Positions 28,263-36,201 of a stretch of DNA of 52,987 bases are shown here, piece after piece; position 1 is the stretch's first letter, and the number at the start of each line of letters is the position of its first letter. The stretch is taken from positions 1-52,987 of the forward strand of contig JAABSJ010000012.1 of NCBI GenBank assembly GCA_011390515.1, given 5' to 3'. The stretch is from Oscillatoria sp. (GTDB lineage: Bacteria > Cyanobacteriota > Cyanobacteriia > Cyanobacteriales > Laspinemataceae). A program made the translations under genes and the position numbers. The notes beneath the pieces are model-generated. The model saw only the letters and a list, made by a program, of their open reading frames with translations, made no database searches and had not been told where the DNA came from.

Positions 28263-29555
28263 CTACAAGTCAACCGCCATCAGGAGGGTGCTGAATGTTT
28301 GGGTTTGGACATCTTCCAGGGGAACAACCAAGCGGTCTCCAGCCCACTCTAACTTGCGTTCCGTGGCAAACAGGCGTTTACCCTGGGGGAGGGAAACCCG
28401 CTGAGAGATTTGTCGCCGCAAGTCATAAACCCAGAGGGTGTGACCGCCTTGAACATCACTGAGGACCGCCACCACGCGATCGCTTTGTTCTGAGAAATCC
28501 GGGCGGATACTAGACAACCGTTCAATGGGCGTTTCTTCAAATAGGAGTTGGCTTTCTCGGGTATCTGCTGAAAAGGCGTAGAGTTTAGCAAAGCTGCTGG
28601 TGGAGTTTTCCCCCGAGGGTCGGCTGGCATAGAGCACCATCTTATAATCATCGCTCAGGGCCAGAAATTCCAGATATTCACCCTCTAATAAAACTTCCTT
28701 ATCTCCCGTAGTGGGGGAGATTGCGACCAAGGAATTCGGCAATTGGCTATACTCCCAAGCCAAAATTTGACCCTGGGCCGTCCATCCGAAAATCCGATAT
28801 TTATCCCCAGTGCTGCCTAGGGCTTTAGTGGCCTTACCCGTTGCCACATCCAAAACCCAAACACTCATATCAGACGATGATCCCAGGGTTTCCCGATTCG
28901 AGGTAAAGGCAATCCTGCGACCATCGGGGGACCAATTGGGATCGGAAGCCCAGTAGAGAATTTTCACCCCCGCCTCGCACTCGGATTCCTGGCAATTGGG
29001 GGGTGGGGGTGTTGAGGGCAATGCCCTAGTTTTGGCGATCGTCTCCTGTAGCGCCTGATGATTGCCGATCGCCTGCACTTCCAGGGTGTTCTTATTCAGC
29101 AGGTATAAACCCCCCAGGTTGAATTGAGGTTGAAACAACAGCACTGAGGGGTCTTGGGGATTCTGCCAGAATTGTGGGGAGGGATGCTGGGGATCGGGAA
29201 TCCAGCGTTGGGTTCCGGCCCAATTGAAGCCCAACAGATGTAACAGGTTGGATTCCCCCGTCACCGAATCTGGATATTCAATTTGCTTACGGGTTGCCTC
29301 AATGCGGCGCTTTTTCCCGTTGAGGTCTATTTCCAAAACTTCGGCAGAAAAGTCTGGATTCGGGTTGCGGCGAGGGGAGGGCAGACTCACGAAGACGGCT
29401 TCGCGATCGGCTTCTGCGATCAACCGCACCGGCTGATCAACCCTGAGATCCCCGGATGAACCTAAACGGAAGTTTTGACATCCCGCAAGACTCAAACCCG
29501 TGAGGCCCAAGAGTAAATAGCAGGTGGCGATCGACAGGTTTTTGGGCAATAACAT
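28263..29555 (-). CDS. Lipoprotein with a TolB/PD40-like beta-propeller
   Basis: The 430-residue product begins with a lipoprotein signal whose lipobox is LAGC, with Cys26 as the likely lipid site, followed by a polar linker. It then has repeating WD40/PD40-type strands, best seen in PNWSPDGRRIAFTSNRE and IRPDFSEQSDRVVAVLSD. TolB-like propellers bind other envelope proteins or ligands in the periplasm. No tol or pal genes are nearby, so this is not TolB itself. A proline-rich loop (STPPPPNCQESECEAG) carries two cysteines. The family is known only at the fold level. Confidence 0.8.
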   Translation of the reverse strand: MLLPKNLSIATCYLLLGLTGLSLAGCQNFRLGSSGDLRVDQPVRLIAEADREAVFVSLPSPRRNPNPDFSAEVLEIDLNGKKRRIEATRKQIEYPDSVTGESNLLHLLGFNWAGTQRWIPDPQHPSPQFWQNPQDPSVLLFQPQFNLGGLYLLNKNTLEVQAIGNHQALQETIAKTRALPSTPPPPNCQESECEAGVKILYWASDPNWSPDGRRIAFTSNRETLGSSSDMSVWVLDVATGKATKALGSTGDKYRIFGWTAQGQILAWEYSQLPNSLVAISPTTGDKEVLLEGEYLEFLALSDDYKMVLYASRPSGENSTSSFAKLYAFSADTRESQLLFEETPIERLSSIRPDFSEQSDRVVAVLSDVQGGHTLWVYDLRRQISQRVSLPQGKRLFATERKLEWAGDRLVVPLEDVQTQTFSTLLMAVDL

Positions 29556-30001: not shown

Positions 30002-31021
30002 TTATTTTTTAGGGTCGCGATGTTCGGAAATTGAGGTTTCTAAGCCGAGGGTTTTGCCGGTGGCATCGGTGCGATAAACCCAGCGAGTGCCGCCATTGGA
30101 GAGGACGATTCGCCAGCCGTTGACCCGGTTGCGATCGCACACGGCTTGGGAATTGAGCAATCCCAGGCAACTGTCTCTCCAAGTTTGGGGGCTATATTCT
30201 GCGACTTGCAATTGATCCGGTGAAATCCCCAGGGTTTTGATCAGGTCAGCTTTGACGAGGGTTACTAAACCGGAGGGCAAAGGGGGCTGTTCTAAGGGTT
30301 CAACAATTGAAGATAAGGCGGCATTGAATAAGAGGACCTCTCCAGGGTGATCGACGTGATAAACCAGGCGTTCATTTCCGGAGGCGATCGCAATCTGCCA
30401 ACCGGGGGTGGTTCCCTTATCACACTTGTGCCCAGATTCATCTACCTCTAGACAGAGATTTGGCCAATCCCGGACCTGAATCCGGGTAATGCTCAACTCG
30501 GCAATGTCCAACCCGGAACGACGGGCAGCGGCTTCTAAGACTGCATTGGCAACCTCTGCGGGGAGATAGCTCACCGGCACATCTGGGGTTTCCAGTTGCA
30601 GGGTCTGTCCCTGGGGATCGCTGCGATACACCCAGCGATCGGCGACCACAATCCGCCATTGCTTGAGGCTGGTTTCGGTACAATCCACTGTGGTATCCGA
30701 GTTCTCCTGACACTCAAGAGGCTGGGATTCCAGACTGTACTCTGTAATCGAGAGTTCAGAGGCTGGAATTCCTAGTTTGAGGGAAAGGTCTTGTTCAACC
30801 GCCTGGATCACGGCATCCGGGAGACGGTATGGGTCAATCGTTTGACGCAGAAGATTGCGCGTATTGCGAACGAGTTGACCGGCGATCGCCATTGGATTGC
30901 TCACGGCCCTAGCACTAGAGGTGACTTTGGGATGTACCTCTAGGAGTAAGACACCTGTCAGCATGACGGCGAGTACCAGCGGGTTAGGCTGTTTTTTACG
31001 GCGTTGTTCGTCCTGGTTCAT
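30002..31021 (-). CDS. Exported protein with three two-cysteine repeats
   Basis: The 339-residue product has a basic N terminus and one hydrophobic segment (LVLAVMLTGVLLLEV), a signal or membrane anchor. Three repeats of about 80 residues follow, at roughly 65-150, 150-235 and 245-330. Each has a Leu-Pro start, a helix, an I(S/T)xxxxxxW segment, a Cys pair 8-14 residues apart, a (G)W-x-I strand and a (W)VYxxD close. Repeat 3 is best preserved (TWRDSCLGL..VCDRN..GWRIVLSN..WVYRTD). The same repeat makes up the next gene. I have seen such repeats in cyanobacterial hypothetical proteins but know no name or function. A periplasmic fold held by a disulfide is likely. Confidence 0.75.
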   Translation of the reverse strand: MNQDEQRRKKQPNPLVLAVMLTGVLLLEVHPKVTSSARAVSNPMAIAGQLVRNTRNLLRQTIDPYRLPDAVIQAVEQDLSLKLGIPASELSITEYSLESQPLECQENSDTTVDCTETSLKQWRIVVADRWVYRSDPQGQTLQLETPDVPVSYLPAEVANAVLEAAARRSGLDIAELSITRIQVRDWPNLCLEVDESGHKCDKGTTPGWQIAIASGNERLVYHVDHPGEVLLFNAALSSIVEPLEQPPLPSGLVTLVKADLIKTLGISPDQLQVAEYSPQTWRDSCLGLLNSQAVCDRNRVNGWRIVLSNGGTRWVYRTDATGKTLGLETSISEHRDPKK

Positions 31022-31761
31022 AGCACTGCTCCGTTATCGGCGATGCCTAAATACCTGTTGGAATTAATCCCGAAAAGCACGTTGCATCGTGGGGAAAGAT
31101 CTCGATGGAGTTTGTGCGATCGGGCTAAACCTCAGATGTCAATTTAGACAACAATACCCGCCCTGCAAGTTCCGCAAACGCTCTTTTCATCATACGGGTT
31201 GCGAGTTCCCGGATCATCCCACAACACAACACCTAAATCAAAGACTTTAGGCTGTCATCTAAGCCGACTTCAAATCACAAGATATTACTCGTAACCCACT
31301 CTTTTCCCTACAGGGATCCGAGGAATTTAATGGAATTGGTTTTCGCTGTTTGATCCAAACCCGCCACAATATTGATCAGGCGTTTATGTAAAACCCGCTA
31401 CGGGTATCTTTTAAACTGTAACAGGATATGTCCCATAAATCAAGACGGGCAGCGCGATCGCGTCCATACACAAATCGTTCTGCCCCCTTGTAACCCAGGC
31501 TACCTGCATTCAATTTATCCCCGTTTAGCTCCCCGGGTCCCTCTTCCATCTGGTTGCCCTAGGGCATTGATGCACTCTGAAATCAGTCGGAAAAAACACC
31601 GGGTTTCTGGACAACATTTAGGCAAATACGTCACCCCATCGCAATAGAAACCCGGTTTATAACTTCTCCTTTCCCCTCCACCTAAGTCACTCTGACTTCG
31701 GCGAAATCGCCTCATTTTTATCTCAATTCATCCGAATTAATTCCCTATCCTATCGGACCCT
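31022..31761. other. Intergenic stretch between the two repeat-protein genes
   Basis: No gene is supported. Two copies of the GAAACCCGGTTT motif lie in inverted orientation at about 31599 and 31647. Confidence 0.45.
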
Positions 31762-32946
31762 TTATCTTCCAATTTGACTCACCATGCGATTCCAGGATTG
31801 AATCACCGGCTGTAAATTGGCGGGTAGCTGTTCTTGGCTGATATCGGCATAGCGAATCGTACTCGAACGACTAGAAAGAGTAACAGTTATATAGTCGGCA
31901 CTCCCCCCAGACCGAGATACATTCAAACCGTTATAGCGATCAAATTGCTGCTGTCCAAGCAACCGTCGAAACTCCTGCACTTGACGGGGCGAAATCCGAC
32001 CCACTCGCCGCCCGGAATCATTGGCATTACCGGGTCCTTGTAAGACCTGCATTAATGTGCCATTATTCATCAGGACCGTTTCATAAGTCTGTCCGGTGAT
32101 TCCCCCAGTCGAAATGGCCCGGAAGATGATTCCCCGGGTTAACGGATCGGGCATTTCGTGAGTTGGAATTTGGGAAGAATTGGTGAAAGGCCGATTTGCC
32201 GTCTCTTGTAAGACAGCATGAGGACCCGATCGCGGTAGGCTAGACTGACCATCGTAAGCTTCAGATAAAATCACCGTGCGACCCGAGTTATCCGTGCGAT
32301 AAATCCACCGTTGACCTGGAGCGCGATCGCTAATCACCGTCACTTCCCATCCCTCAACCAGCGCTTGTGTACAGATTCTACCCGCTTGAGGAACCCCCAG
32401 ACAGCCATTTGGCCAAGTTTGCCGCACCGCTTTCACAATCCGAAAATTGTTGATAGACATCCGCGTCCGACCGGAAACCGCTTGTAAGACAGCATCAGAG
32501 ACCGATCGCGGTAACTCCGTACTCGCCGCATTCTGTCCCGATTCTAAACGCACAGTTCGTCCCGTGTCATCGGTGCGATAGACCCACTGATTGTTGTTTT
32601 CCGTGAGCACCATCCGCCATCCATCGGTTCGCACTTGAGAGCAGAATTCATTCGGTCCCGACAACCCGAGACAGGAATCCGGCCAAGTTTGGCGGGTTGC
32701 TTCTGTAATCCGGATTTGTCGTTCGGGGATATTTTGACGGCGCGACAGGTCACTAATCACCGCACTTTGCACCGATCGCGGGACATTATCCAGATCCATC
32801 TGGCGATCGCCTTTCGCAATCAAAGTGGCCGAGTCTCCTCTTAACCCAGGCAAGGTCGCTTCGGCAGCGTTCATTCCCCCTAACGGGGCGATTAATCCAA
32901 TCAACCCCATTAACACCAACGAAAAAAGAATTCTTTCCGATTTCAT
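31762..32946 (-). CDS. Exported paralogue with two two-cysteine repeats and an extra C-terminal domain
   Basis: The 394-residue product begins with a clear signal peptide ending near GGMNAAEA. Two complete repeats (about residues 52-138 and 140-228) show QTWPDSCLGL..FCSQ..GWRMVL..WVYRTD and QTWPNGCLGV..ICTQ..GWEVTV..RWIYRTD. A third copy begins (SLPRSGPHAVLQE) but breaks off into a different domain of about 140 residues (YETVLMNNGTLMQVLQG..RRVGRISPRQVQEFRRLL). It shares the repeat and the strand with the previous gene, so the two are paralogues. The protein is periplasmic or secreted. The function is unknown. Confidence 0.78.
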   Translation of the reverse strand: MKSERILFSLVLMGLIGLIAPLGGMNAAEATLPGLRGDSATLIAKGDRQMDLDNVPRSVQSAVISDLSRRQNIPERQIRITEATRQTWPDSCLGLSGPNEFCSQVRTDGWRMVLTENNNQWVYRTDDTGRTVRLESGQNAASTELPRSVSDAVLQAVSGRTRMSINNFRIVKAVRQTWPNGCLGVPQAGRICTQALVEGWEVTVISDRAPGQRWIYRTDNSGRTVILSEAYDGQSSLPRSGPHAVLQETANRPFTNSSQIPTHEMPDPLTRGIIFRAISTGGITGQTYETVLMNNGTLMQVLQGPGNANDSGRRVGRISPRQVQEFRRLLGQQQFDRYNGLNVSRSGGSADYITVTLSSRSSTIRYADISQEQLPANLQPVIQSWNRMVSQIGR

Positions 32947-33218: not shown

Positions 33219-33347
33219 TAAGGGAACTCCAAACAATAAATTCTTCAAAATCTTTGAAAAGAGATCCCCCCAACCCCCCTTAATAAGGGGGGCTTGAATA
33301 ATTCTACCCAACTTCTAATGCAGAATTTTTTTTATGCAAATCCCTAA
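33219..33347. mobile_element. Miniature element, AGGGAACTCC family
   Basis: The left end is TAAGGGAACTCCAAACAATAAA and the right end TTTTTATGCAAATCCCTAAA, with the CCCCCCAACCCCCCTT hairpin inside. The right end touches the stop codon of the phosphatase gene, so it may supply that gene's transcript end. The rest of 32947-33343 has no gene. Confidence 0.8.
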
Positions 33348-34009
33348 AACCCCACGGTTTCTAATAACTGGCGCTGGGCGTGATTTAACTTAATCCAGGG
33401 TCGCGCTTGCTTTAACATCGCTTCTGCTTCCTGAGCATTGGTTGCCAATCCTCGGGCCATCAAAACAGCCGCAGCAACCGTCGCCGATCGCCCATGTCCA
33501 ATGGCACAGTGAATGTAAACATTTCCCGGCCAATCCGCAATTTTTTGGACTAAGGCGCGGAATTCTCCCTCATCAGGAACATGAGCATCTAAAGTCGGTA
33601 AACAAAGATATTCTTTCCCCTCTAGGGCCCCTTTGGGTTCCGAAAACTCGGCAGTTAAATCCACCAATAAACTAATTTCGGCGGGTAACTCATCCACAAA
33701 AGCCCGTCTTCCGATCCACAAAGCCGGGGCAATATAATTATAACAGTCCTCTTTCAAAAACCGGCGCTGTAGATGCCAAAACCCCCAACAAAATAATAGG
33801 TAAGGGAATAACAAGATAACCGAAGGGAGTCCCAATTGCCCATCAGTTGAGCGCTTGCCAAAAATTTTATACCCCAGTTTCAGATAAGCGGCGGCGACGA
33901 TTAAAAAATCCAGACCTAACCACGCCAACAACCATCCGAATCCCCCTAACTGCTCTCCGAGGGTGAGCAGTCCGGTCCCCAAAATCACAAACAAAACAAT
34001 ATACTTCAT
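33344..34009 (-). CDS. Membrane-anchored dual-specificity (tyrosine-type) phosphatase
   Basis: From the ATG at 34009 the product has 221 residues. Three hydrophobic segments (about 3-20, 24-45 and 62-80) precede a cysteine-phosphatase domain. The P-loop is HCAIGHGRS, with nucleophile Cys168 and Arg174. A likely general acid, Asp141, lies in LPTLDAHVPDEGEF. The domain resembles DSP/PTPMT-like enzymes that act on phosphotyrosine or phospholipids; a membrane anchor fits either. The open frame extends to 34063, but the ATG at 34009, with AGAGAAG before it, is the better start. It is divergent from egtC. Confidence 0.85.
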   Translation of the reverse strand: MKYIVLFVILGTGLLTLGEQLGGFGWLLAWLGLDFLIVAAAYLKLGYKIFGKRSTDGQLGLPSVILLFPYLLFCWGFWHLQRRFLKEDCYNYIAPALWIGRRAFVDELPAEISLLVDLTAEFSEPKGALEGKEYLCLPTLDAHVPDEGEFRALVQKIADWPGNVYIHCAIGHGRSATVAAAVLMARGLATNAQEAEAMLKQARPWIKLNHAQRQLLETVGF

Positions 34010-34080
34010 GGTTGCTTCTCTCTTCTGTGCCAGTTGCCGATCTTGACAAGTGTTTTGAGTCACCAGAGCAAAATTTGCGC

Positions 34081-34139: not shown

Positions 34140-34946
34140 ATGTGTCGTTTACTTGCCTACTTAGGCCGACCGATTCAACTCGATCGCCTCCTCCTGCAAC
34201 CTGAACATTCCCTGGTAGTGCAAAGCTATCAACCCCGGGAGATGACCTCCGGAGTGGTCAACGCTGATGGGTTTGGGATGGGATGGTATGATCGGGACCC
34301 GGAGGTTGACCCCTTTACCTACAAAAATCTGCTGCCGATTTGGAATGATACCAACCTGCCGCATCTGAGTCGGTACATTGAAACCGGAACCTTCCTCGGA
34401 TGTGTTCGCAGCGCGACTGCCGGACAAGATGTGACGGTGAGCAATTGTCCACCTTTTGGCGATCGCCGGATTCTGGCAGTTCACAACGGGTTTATCGACA
34501 ACTTCCGCAAAACCCTGTATCGTCCAATTCGCAACAAGCTGACGGATGATATTTACCAGCAAATTGGCGGGACGACGGACACCGAACATATTTTTGCTCT
34601 CTTTCTATCCCTCTTAGATGTTACGGCAGATCATCACCCGCAACCTCATCCCCCCCTCACTTCGGCGTTGCACAGTACCTTAAGCATTTTAACGGAACTC
34701 GCTAGACCCGAAGGGGTGAAATTTTCGGCGAATTTGATCATCACTGACGGACATCAATTGGTTGCCTCACGCTTTGCCTATCAGACCCCTGCACCGTCTT
34801 TGTACTGGTTACGGGATGATCCGAACTTTCCCGAGTCGGTGATGATTGCCTCGGAACCTTTGTTCGCGGGAGACTGGAATAAATGTCCGGAAGAAAGTAT
34901 GATTACGGTGGGGGAGAGCCTTGACATCAATATCCATCAAATCTAA
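34140..34946 (+). CDS. egtC: Ergothioneine biosynthesis amidohydrolase EgtC
   Basis: This 268-residue class II glutamine-amidotransferase-fold enzyme has the mature nucleophile Cys2 (MCRLLAYLG). Other marks are NADGFGMGWY, FLGCVRSAT, CPPFGDRRILAVHNGFIDNF and TDTEHIFALF. EgtC removes the gamma-glutamyl group from the hercynyl-gamma-glutamylcysteine sulfoxide made by EgtB. The gene overlaps egtB by 26 bases, which indicates translational coupling and supports the assignment over a generic amidotransferase. Confidence 0.9.
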   Translation: MCRLLAYLGRPIQLDRLLLQPEHSLVVQSYQPREMTSGVVNADGFGMGWYDRDPEVDPFTYKNLLPIWNDTNLPHLSRYIETGTFLGCVRSATAGQDVTVSNCPPFGDRRILAVHNGFIDNFRKTLYRPIRNKLTDDIYQQIGGTTDTEHIFALFLSLLDVTADHHPQPHPPLTSALHSTLSILTELARPEGVKFSANLIITDGHQLVASRFAYQTPAPSLYWLRDDPNFPESVMIASEPLFAGDWNKCPEESMITVGESLDINIHQI

Positions 34947-36201
34947 GGCGATCGCCTCGGAGGTAATCCGTGACCCGGAGGCGGTGAGAGAGCAACTCCG
35001 CGAATCGATGTATCACTGTCGCCTGGGCACCCTCAAGCTGTTTGAAGCGATGGATGACGCAACCTTTCGCTGTCAAGTCCATCCCGATTTTAGTCCCGTG
35101 GGTTGGCACTTAGGACATATTGGATTTACGGAAGGATTATGGTTGCTGGAAAGATGTGCAGGAATACCGCCCTTATTTCCTCAGTATCGGCAACTGATGG
35201 CACAGGATGGATTGCCGAAACATCAACGAGTTGAGTTGCCTCCATTGCCGGAGATTTTGGATTATATTTCGGCGGTGCGATCGCAGGTTTTTGAGTATTT
35301 AAAAACCGCTGATTTGCAACAACAAGAGCGAATTTGGCGGTTTATGCTGCAACATGAAAGTCAGCATACCGAAACCATCGCCTTTGTTTTGCAATTGCAG
35401 AAAGGGGCGATGGGAAAACAAGACGAGGCGCTTGGCAACCCTTCAAAATTGCCGACTCAATCTGTCCCTATTCCTGCGGGAGAGTTTGGGTTCGGAAACC
35501 ATGGTCCCGATGCCTTGGATAACGAACAATCCCCCCAACGATTGTACCTGCCCGATTACACCATTGACCCCTATCCCGTCACCTGTGAACAGTATCGGCA
35601 ATTTATACAATGCGGAGGATATCAAACGCGGGATTGGTGGTCTCAGGCAGGTTGGGACTGGTTACAAGGCGCACAAGTAACTCAACCCCTGTATTGGCGG
35701 GATGAACCGGCCTTTAATCATCATCCCGTCTGTGGCGTGAGTTACTATGAAGCGGAAGCTTATGCGAAATTTGTGGGGAAACGACTCCCCACGGAAGCGG
35801 AATGGGAAAAAGCGGCCTGTTGGGACCCGGTGACCCAGACACAGCGCATCTATCCTTGGGGGGATGAATTTCCCACAGACGATCGCTGCAATCATGATAA
35901 CGAACAAGCGCAAACCACCCCCGTTAATCGCTATCCCCAAGGCGTTAGCGCCTACGGATGTTATGACATGATGGGAAATGTCTGGGAATGGACCTCTAGT
36001 TGGTTTGCCCCCTATCCGGGATTTAAACCCTATCCCTACCCCGGATACTCCCAAATCTATTTTGACCAACAGCATCGAGTATTACGCGGCAGCAGTTGGG
36101 CGACTCGTCCTTGGGCGATGCGCGGCAGTTTTCGTAACTGGTATCATCCTTGGATGCGACAGATTTTAGCAGGATTTCGCTGTGCTGGAGGCAGTGATTA
36201 A
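34921..36201 (+). CDS. egtB: Ergothioneine sulfoxide synthase EgtB
   Basis: The 426-residue enzyme has two parts. A DinB-like N-terminal domain carries iron ligands: WHLGH near residue 62, and H145-x3-H149-x-E151 in QHESQHTETI. A C-terminal formylglycine-generating-enzyme-like domain includes YTIDPYPVTCEQYRQFI, RLPTEAEWEKAA, MGNVWEWTSSW and RGSSWATRPWAMRGSFRNWY. It joins hercynine to cysteine or gamma-glutamylcysteine with oxygen. The TTG start at 34921 lies inside egtC and has GGGGGAG upstream; no ATG start comes before conserved sequence. Presence of EgtC implies the gamma-glutamylcysteine route. Confidence 0.92.
   Translation: MTSISIKSKAIASEVIRDPEAVREQLRESMYHCRLGTLKLFEAMDDATFRCQVHPDFSPVGWHLGHIGFTEGLWLLERCAGIPPLFPQYRQLMAQDGLPKHQRVELPPLPEILDYISAVRSQVFEYLKTADLQQQERIWRFMLQHESQHTETIAFVLQLQKGAMGKQDEALGNPSKLPTQSVPIPAGEFGFGNHGPDALDNEQSPQRLYLPDYTIDPYPVTCEQYRQFIQCGGYQTRDWWSQAGWDWLQGAQVTQPLYWRDEPAFNHHPVCGVSYYEAEAYAKFVGKRLPTEAEWEKAACWDPVTQTQRIYPWGDEFPTDDRCNHDNEQAQTTPVNRYPQGVSAYGCYDMMGNVWEWTSSWFAPYPGFKPYPYPGYSQIYFDQQHRVLRGSSWATRPWAMRGSFRNWYHPWMRQILAGFRCAGGSD

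Follow-up and report, generated by a model that had tools for sequence, protein, structure and literature searches.

Two adjacent genes of a filamentous cyanobacterium encode proteins containing tandem copies of a two-cysteine repeat, raising the questions of whether the repeat constitutes an undescribed protein family and what proteins built from it might do. The genes lie in a window of 52,987 nucleotides, the whole stretch of DNA analyzed here, and the closest relatives of the first gene identify its source as a Laspinema-like filamentous cyanobacterium. Both genes are minus-strand open reading frames (ORFs), separated by 740 bases, and their positions agree with those of an earlier note made from the sequence. 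The features are as follows.

31762–32946, minus strand: gene A (394 aa), with a signal-like N terminus, two repeats, a stub, and an emfourin-like C-terminal domain
32863–32946, minus strand: hydrophobic, signal-peptide-like N-terminal segment of gene A, from sequence and a hydrophobicity measure (end approximate)
32539–32787, minus strand: repeat A1 (profile E 7.0e-39, the profile including A1; AlphaFold2 pLDDT 83.6)
32263–32520, minus strand: repeat A2 (pairwise shuffle test, alignment, profile search)
32191–32241, minus strand: stub similar to the opening 17 residues of a repeat (z 4.2 with A2 alone)
31774–32160, minus strand: emfourin-like C-terminal domain of gene A (Pfam Emfourin 15.9 bits, cut-off 27 bits)
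30002–31021, minus strand: gene B (339 aa), with a hydrophobic N terminus and three repeats, without the emfourin-like domain
30587–30829, minus strand: repeat B1, with both cysteines and without TWPDS (shuffle test, alignment, profile)
30323–30571, minus strand: repeat B2 (shuffle test, alignment, profile)
30035–30286, minus strand: repeat B3 (shuffle test, alignment, profile)

Judging by their N-terminal sequences, both proteins are probably exported. A scan of genome contigs whose reach was confined to near kin gives full-length relatives of gene A, 87–92% identical, in five genomes (three Laspinema, Phormidium pseudopriestleyi, and Oscillatoria sp. HE19RPO), and a 43% identical relative of gene B is present in a sister genus (genome G229, locus L059). 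Upstream of gene A is a dual-specificity-type phosphatase gene (33344–34063, minus strand), which adjoins gene A in all five relatives and whose N-terminal region looks membrane-like by eye; beyond it, at 34140–36201 on the plus strand, an EgtC gene (TIGR03442, 308 bits, above cut-off) overlaps an EgtB-like gene (349.5 bits, cut-off 360), such that an ergothioneine pathway pair adjoins the repeat genes. Downstream of gene B is a gene for a lipoprotein-like PD40/TolB-type propeller protein (28263–29555, minus strand). All five relatives keep these genes in the order EgtB, EgtC, phosphatase, A, B, and four of them have the propeller gene next after gene B; in the other one, L014, the propeller gene was not seen within the 1,063 bases remaining past gene B.

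A cyanobacterial two-cysteine repeat

The earlier note counted five complete copies and one broken copy of the repeat. The five complete copies hold up well, with pairwise local scores 12.9 to 29.7 standard deviations above shuffles (300 per pair); all 10 pairs outscore every one of their shuffles, and eight columns are invariant, including both cysteines, the tryptophan of GW, and the tyrosine of VYRTD. The broken copy is weak. It is the stub at residues 236–252 of gene A, starting SLPRSGPHAVLQETANR; when a 60-residue stretch is compared, its score against A2 (37) equals the best of 300 shuffles, and with the four other copies z does not exceed 2.2. The alignment bears out that the first copy of gene B keeps its cysteine pair and has lost TWPDS.

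The window's genome has 10 profile matches to the repeat. Besides the five window copies, there is one where a PhoD phosphatase ends (L007), one in a protein with a single repeat (L008), a pair in a gene at a contig edge (L009), and one that is divergent (L011). In a phylum-wide draw, a profile search found the repeat in 78 of 292 cyanobacterial genomes. The loci fetched from these, comprising the best matches plus 20 stretches picked mostly for long ORFs, yielded 62 repeat ORFs with 125 copies, and the mix of architectures is thus not a census. With ten near-identical orthologues set aside, the 52 remaining ORFs carry one to seven copies each. SLH domains follow the repeat in all three SLH-like proteins scanned (L055–L057), as they appear to by eye in four more (L049, L050, L052, L054), and PhoD precedes the repeat in both PhoD-like proteins scanned (L007, L053). 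Four of the ten repeat proteins scanned (L011, L047, L058, L063) have no Pfam domain above cut-off beside their repeats. In L063 (464–1516), two repeats follow a cysteine-containing N-terminal domain that is reminiscent of NTR/TIMP-like domains, without a Pfam match. Another protein, L046 (G172:C5), has six repeats; its third and fourth have the same sequence, reflecting a recent tandem duplication. Searches of viral contigs (three queries) and phage records (one query) found no relative, and plasmid records gave matches in Leptolyngbya and Nostoc only, plus Citrobacter at E 0.3.

The cysteines behave as a unit. Among 124 distinct copies, many of them related and so not independent trials, 122 have exactly two cysteines and two have none, with never one or three; at the fixed alignment columns, both are present in 120 copies, neither in three, and the second only in one. 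Where both are in register (120 copies), the spacing between them is usually nine residues (106 copies). One PhoD-fused repeat (L053, residues 817–897) has lost both cysteines together. The loop that they bound is no more conserved than its surroundings (1.80 bits, versus 2.16 bits in the rest of the repeat). A hydrophobic stretch lies ahead of the first repeat in 56 of the 62 repeat ORFs, by stop-to-stop reading and a rough hydrophobicity measure. Since the cysteines come as a pair or not at all in proteins whose N termini look export-like, it is very likely that the two form a disulfide. The repeat is a cyanobacterial domain of ~83 residues, in which the two cysteines are kept or lost together.

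Library searches and predicted fold

None of the five window copies matches any Pfam family at E up to 10. When 76 diverse copies were searched, each of the 25 families inspected, out of 30 found, matched no more than two copies (best E 0.023); these weak, single-copy matches include SH3_4 (2 of 76, E 0.046), an S-layer domain (1 of 76, E 0.023), and the Kazal inhibitor family (1 of 76, E 0.03), for which the whole of protein L062 scores 16.2 bits, under the cut-off of 21. PepSY is not among the matches of the window copies, nor among those inspected for the diverse copies. NCBIfam has no match for protein A or protein B, and PDB sequences include no credible match for the repeat. Polyubiquitin tops the PDB list at E 9e-7, but we reject ubiquitin because this value is a sum over nine weak copies, with at most 2.8 bits per copy in the two alignments inspected; the last match on the list is cystatin-A2, at E 1.5. 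A BFN_dom match of L062 (29.6 bits, cut-off 27) probably comes from the same summing over copies. In the open-access literature searched (by motif, emfourin, PepSY, protealysin, Nostoc inhibitor, and Laspinema topics), no paper describes the repeat in its title or the start of its abstract. It is thus well supported that the repeat family is unnamed in Pfam and NCBIfam, and that 'undescribed' holds for the libraries and open-access literature searched.

AlphaFold2 models repeat A1 as a helix (residues 6–20) followed by four strands (28–37, 56–65, 68–75, and 80–85), with mean pLDDT 83.6 and pTM 0.73, using an alignment of 30 rows drawn from the window and loci L012–L016 only. The predicted fold class, one helix with a four-stranded sheet, is well supported; the least certain block of the model is residues 41–50, which hold the cysteine loop (mean pLDDT 61). 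A Foldseek search of this model against the PDB returned no match with an E of 0.001 or less. The best match is the C-terminal domain of YpeB (E 0.19, probability 0.85, TM 0.45 on the query), which we take to contain PepSY, followed by the also nonsignificant BLIP-like 4fr9 and DUF2874 4ipb (E 0.53 and 0.63) and cystatin-like 4qan (0.56), mixed with others such as TnsE, RAG1/2, and Sec3. Domains of the PepSY, BLIP, and cystatin types take part in inhibition or in the control of peptidases. The earlier suggestion of an inhibitor- or PepSY-like fold is compatible with the predicted topology, although no fold match is significant.

PepSY/YpeB (PF03413) may share the predicted helix-then-sheet topology and gives the top, nonsignificant fold match; the repeat has no Pfam or profile match to it and has an extra cysteine-bounded loop, usually of nine residues. 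Aligning the repeat to 11 cyanobacterial PepSY domains with hhalign gave a local score of 11.8, exceeded by two of 60 shuffled-column controls (maximum 12.2), and PepSY kinship by sequence is rejected on that account. The BLIP-like and DUF2874 structures are neighbors in the fold list with no sequence match seen, and the cystatin fold, like the predicted repeat, packs a helix on a sheet, with no significant match.

The C-terminal domain of gene A and M4 peptidases

The earlier note proposed that gene A had swapped its third repeat for a new domain. Neither part stands as put: a swap is not plainly seen, as the same C-terminal domain ends other cyanobacterial repeat proteins (17 of the 52 ORFs, gene A counted), and the domain itself appears from its sequence to be a distant relative of emfourin. 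It scores 15.9 bits against Pfam Emfourin (PF20242; E 0.017), below the 27-bit gathering cut-off; 15 of 22 members of the domain match that model at E up to 1 (best 2e-4), and 16 of 22 weakly match DUF6438 (best E 0.0015). A segment of the form F(R/Q)...GG(F/I)xG is kept in 21 of the 22, and GGFAG is present in all 29 canonical emfourin rows compared, which come from the best-scoring loci. With hhalign, the domain scores 27.0 against the 29 canonical emfourins (P 3e-4; shuffled mean 11.4), yet one of 100 column shuffles reached 28.6. A search of 126 whole genomes of one family (f6) with the Emfourin model ranked canonical short emfourins first, and among the matches listed all nine below the cut-off were the domain studied here. 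By these profile comparisons, we regard the domain as a distant homologue of emfourin and not a member by Pfam's standard. Its AlphaFold2 model (pLDDT 44) is too poor for a fold search.

A profile of the emfourin-like domain matches 36 of the 292 genomes, with fragments only in at least three (G033, G153, G245), and 35 of these 36 genomes also have the repeat. Nine matches lie in repeat-less ORFs of 176–214 aa; for seven of them the listed repeat matches of the same genome are elsewhere, G193 has no repeat, and in G078 the place of the repeat is not among the matches listed.

In the published account of the Serratia protealysin operon (PMC9505478), emfourin is encoded within the operon, inhibits protealysin and thermolysin, and binds the active-site region of protealysin 1:1. 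The gene A domain shares with it the GG(F/I)xG segment near the N terminus and a subthreshold match over most of the Pfam model; it differs in being longer (model of 128 versus 91 positions), probably exported, and placed behind two-cysteine repeats. The described inhibitor gene also adjoins that of its M4 peptidase, whereas searches for M4 peptidases found none either in the window's genome (87.5% complete) or in any of the five relatives carrying both genes, and the known emfourin target thus seems absent there.

We also asked whether, across the phylum, the exported emfourin-like domain might target M4 peptidases. The domain is present in 12 of 16 M4 genomes versus 36 of 292 overall (p 2.6e-9), and within family f6 in 80 of 82 M4 genomes versus 99 of 126 (p 2e-12), both uncorrected for shared ancestry; in f6 the association persists after accounting for genome size (p 5e-4; 119 of the 126 genomes, seven with neither left out). 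Canonical emfourins are encoded beside M4 genes (L128–L157, for example G303:C86:32079–32967), as in the Serratia operon (PMC9505478), and in 75 of the 82 M4 genomes of f6 a canonical emfourin starts within 1,500 bases of the M4 match. The co-occurrence is confounded by these adjacent canonical emfourins, and because kinship is uncorrected and the window's lineage shows no M4, we do not rely on it. If gene A inhibits a peptidase in this organism, the target would be another peptidase or a foreign one.

Possible functions of the repeat proteins

Gene A has dN/dS of 0.13–0.20 against its five relatives, and gene B 0.27–0.31 in four comparisons (L013 left out). Within gene A (five comparisons), dN/dS is 0.06–0.12 in the repeats and 0.12–0.17 in the C-terminal domain, and the 33 codons around the stub (residues 230–262) evolve faster, at 0.29–0.68. 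Purifying selection thus acts on the repeats of gene A, unlike the pattern of an arms race.

Whereas the family and its fold class are well supported, inhibition is what we infer, by analogy with emfourin. We tentatively favor gene A being a secreted, multidomain peptidase inhibitor in which the repeat is a protein-binding module. Each repeat would be a small protein-recognition module, with the disulfide pinning the loop between strands 1 and 2, and the emfourin-like domain would block an extracytoplasmic metallopeptidase at its active-site cleft; the gene A repeats could act as further binding heads or attach the protein to its target, and gene B would be its relative with three heads, lacking the emfourin one. 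Against inhibition are the lack of an M4 peptidase, the Emfourin score below cut-off, the DUF6438 matches, the one column shuffle in 100 that outscored the emfourin comparison, the poor model of the C-terminal domain, the fold match at E 0.19, the purifying selection on the repeats, the cysteine loop with no excess conservation, and the PhoD and SLH fusions, which do not suggest inhibition. The stronger proposal, that the repeats are a new family of disulfide-pinned inhibitors, of which one to seven are chained ahead of an exported emfourin head to act on extracytoplasmic peptidases, distinct from the M4-adjacent emfourins, seems to us doubtful.

Given the SLH and PhoD fusions, a role in binding the cell envelope is nearly as likely as inhibition. 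The repeat would then be an adaptor for sheath polysaccharide, peptidoglycan, or a surface protein, with tandem copies adding avidity and the partner domain doing the work. This accounts for the unrelated fusion partners (SLH in three of three and PhoD in two of two look-alikes scanned), the lone-repeat proteins of lipoprotein or secreted type, the range in copy number, and a loop that does not evolve rapidly; however, the SLH proteins already have an anchor of their own, and no copy exceeds the cut-off for a known carbohydrate- or wall-binding family, the SH3_4 and S-layer domain matches being weak. We consider it improbable that the repeat is a PepSY-type local regulator or folding aid of the protein to which it is fused: the YpeB match and a strand pattern and D..G turn that look PepSY-like by eye point that way, but the profile score is within its shuffled controls and the four scanned proteins with no other Pfam domain offer no obvious enzyme to regulate. 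That genes A and B are decaying relics without selected function is very improbable in view of the purifying selection on both and their retention in order in five relatives, even though the weak stub in gene A and a repeat in L037 that looks shrunken by eye suggest copy loss.

A domain present in more than a quarter of the sampled cyanobacterial genomes lacks a Pfam or NCBIfam model and could easily be named and tested, and an unannotated, probably exported protein family is now tied to the emfourin superfamily. If gene A and its kin are indeed secreted peptidase inhibitors, it would become possible to assay directly how cyanobacteria control proteolysis beyond their cytoplasm.
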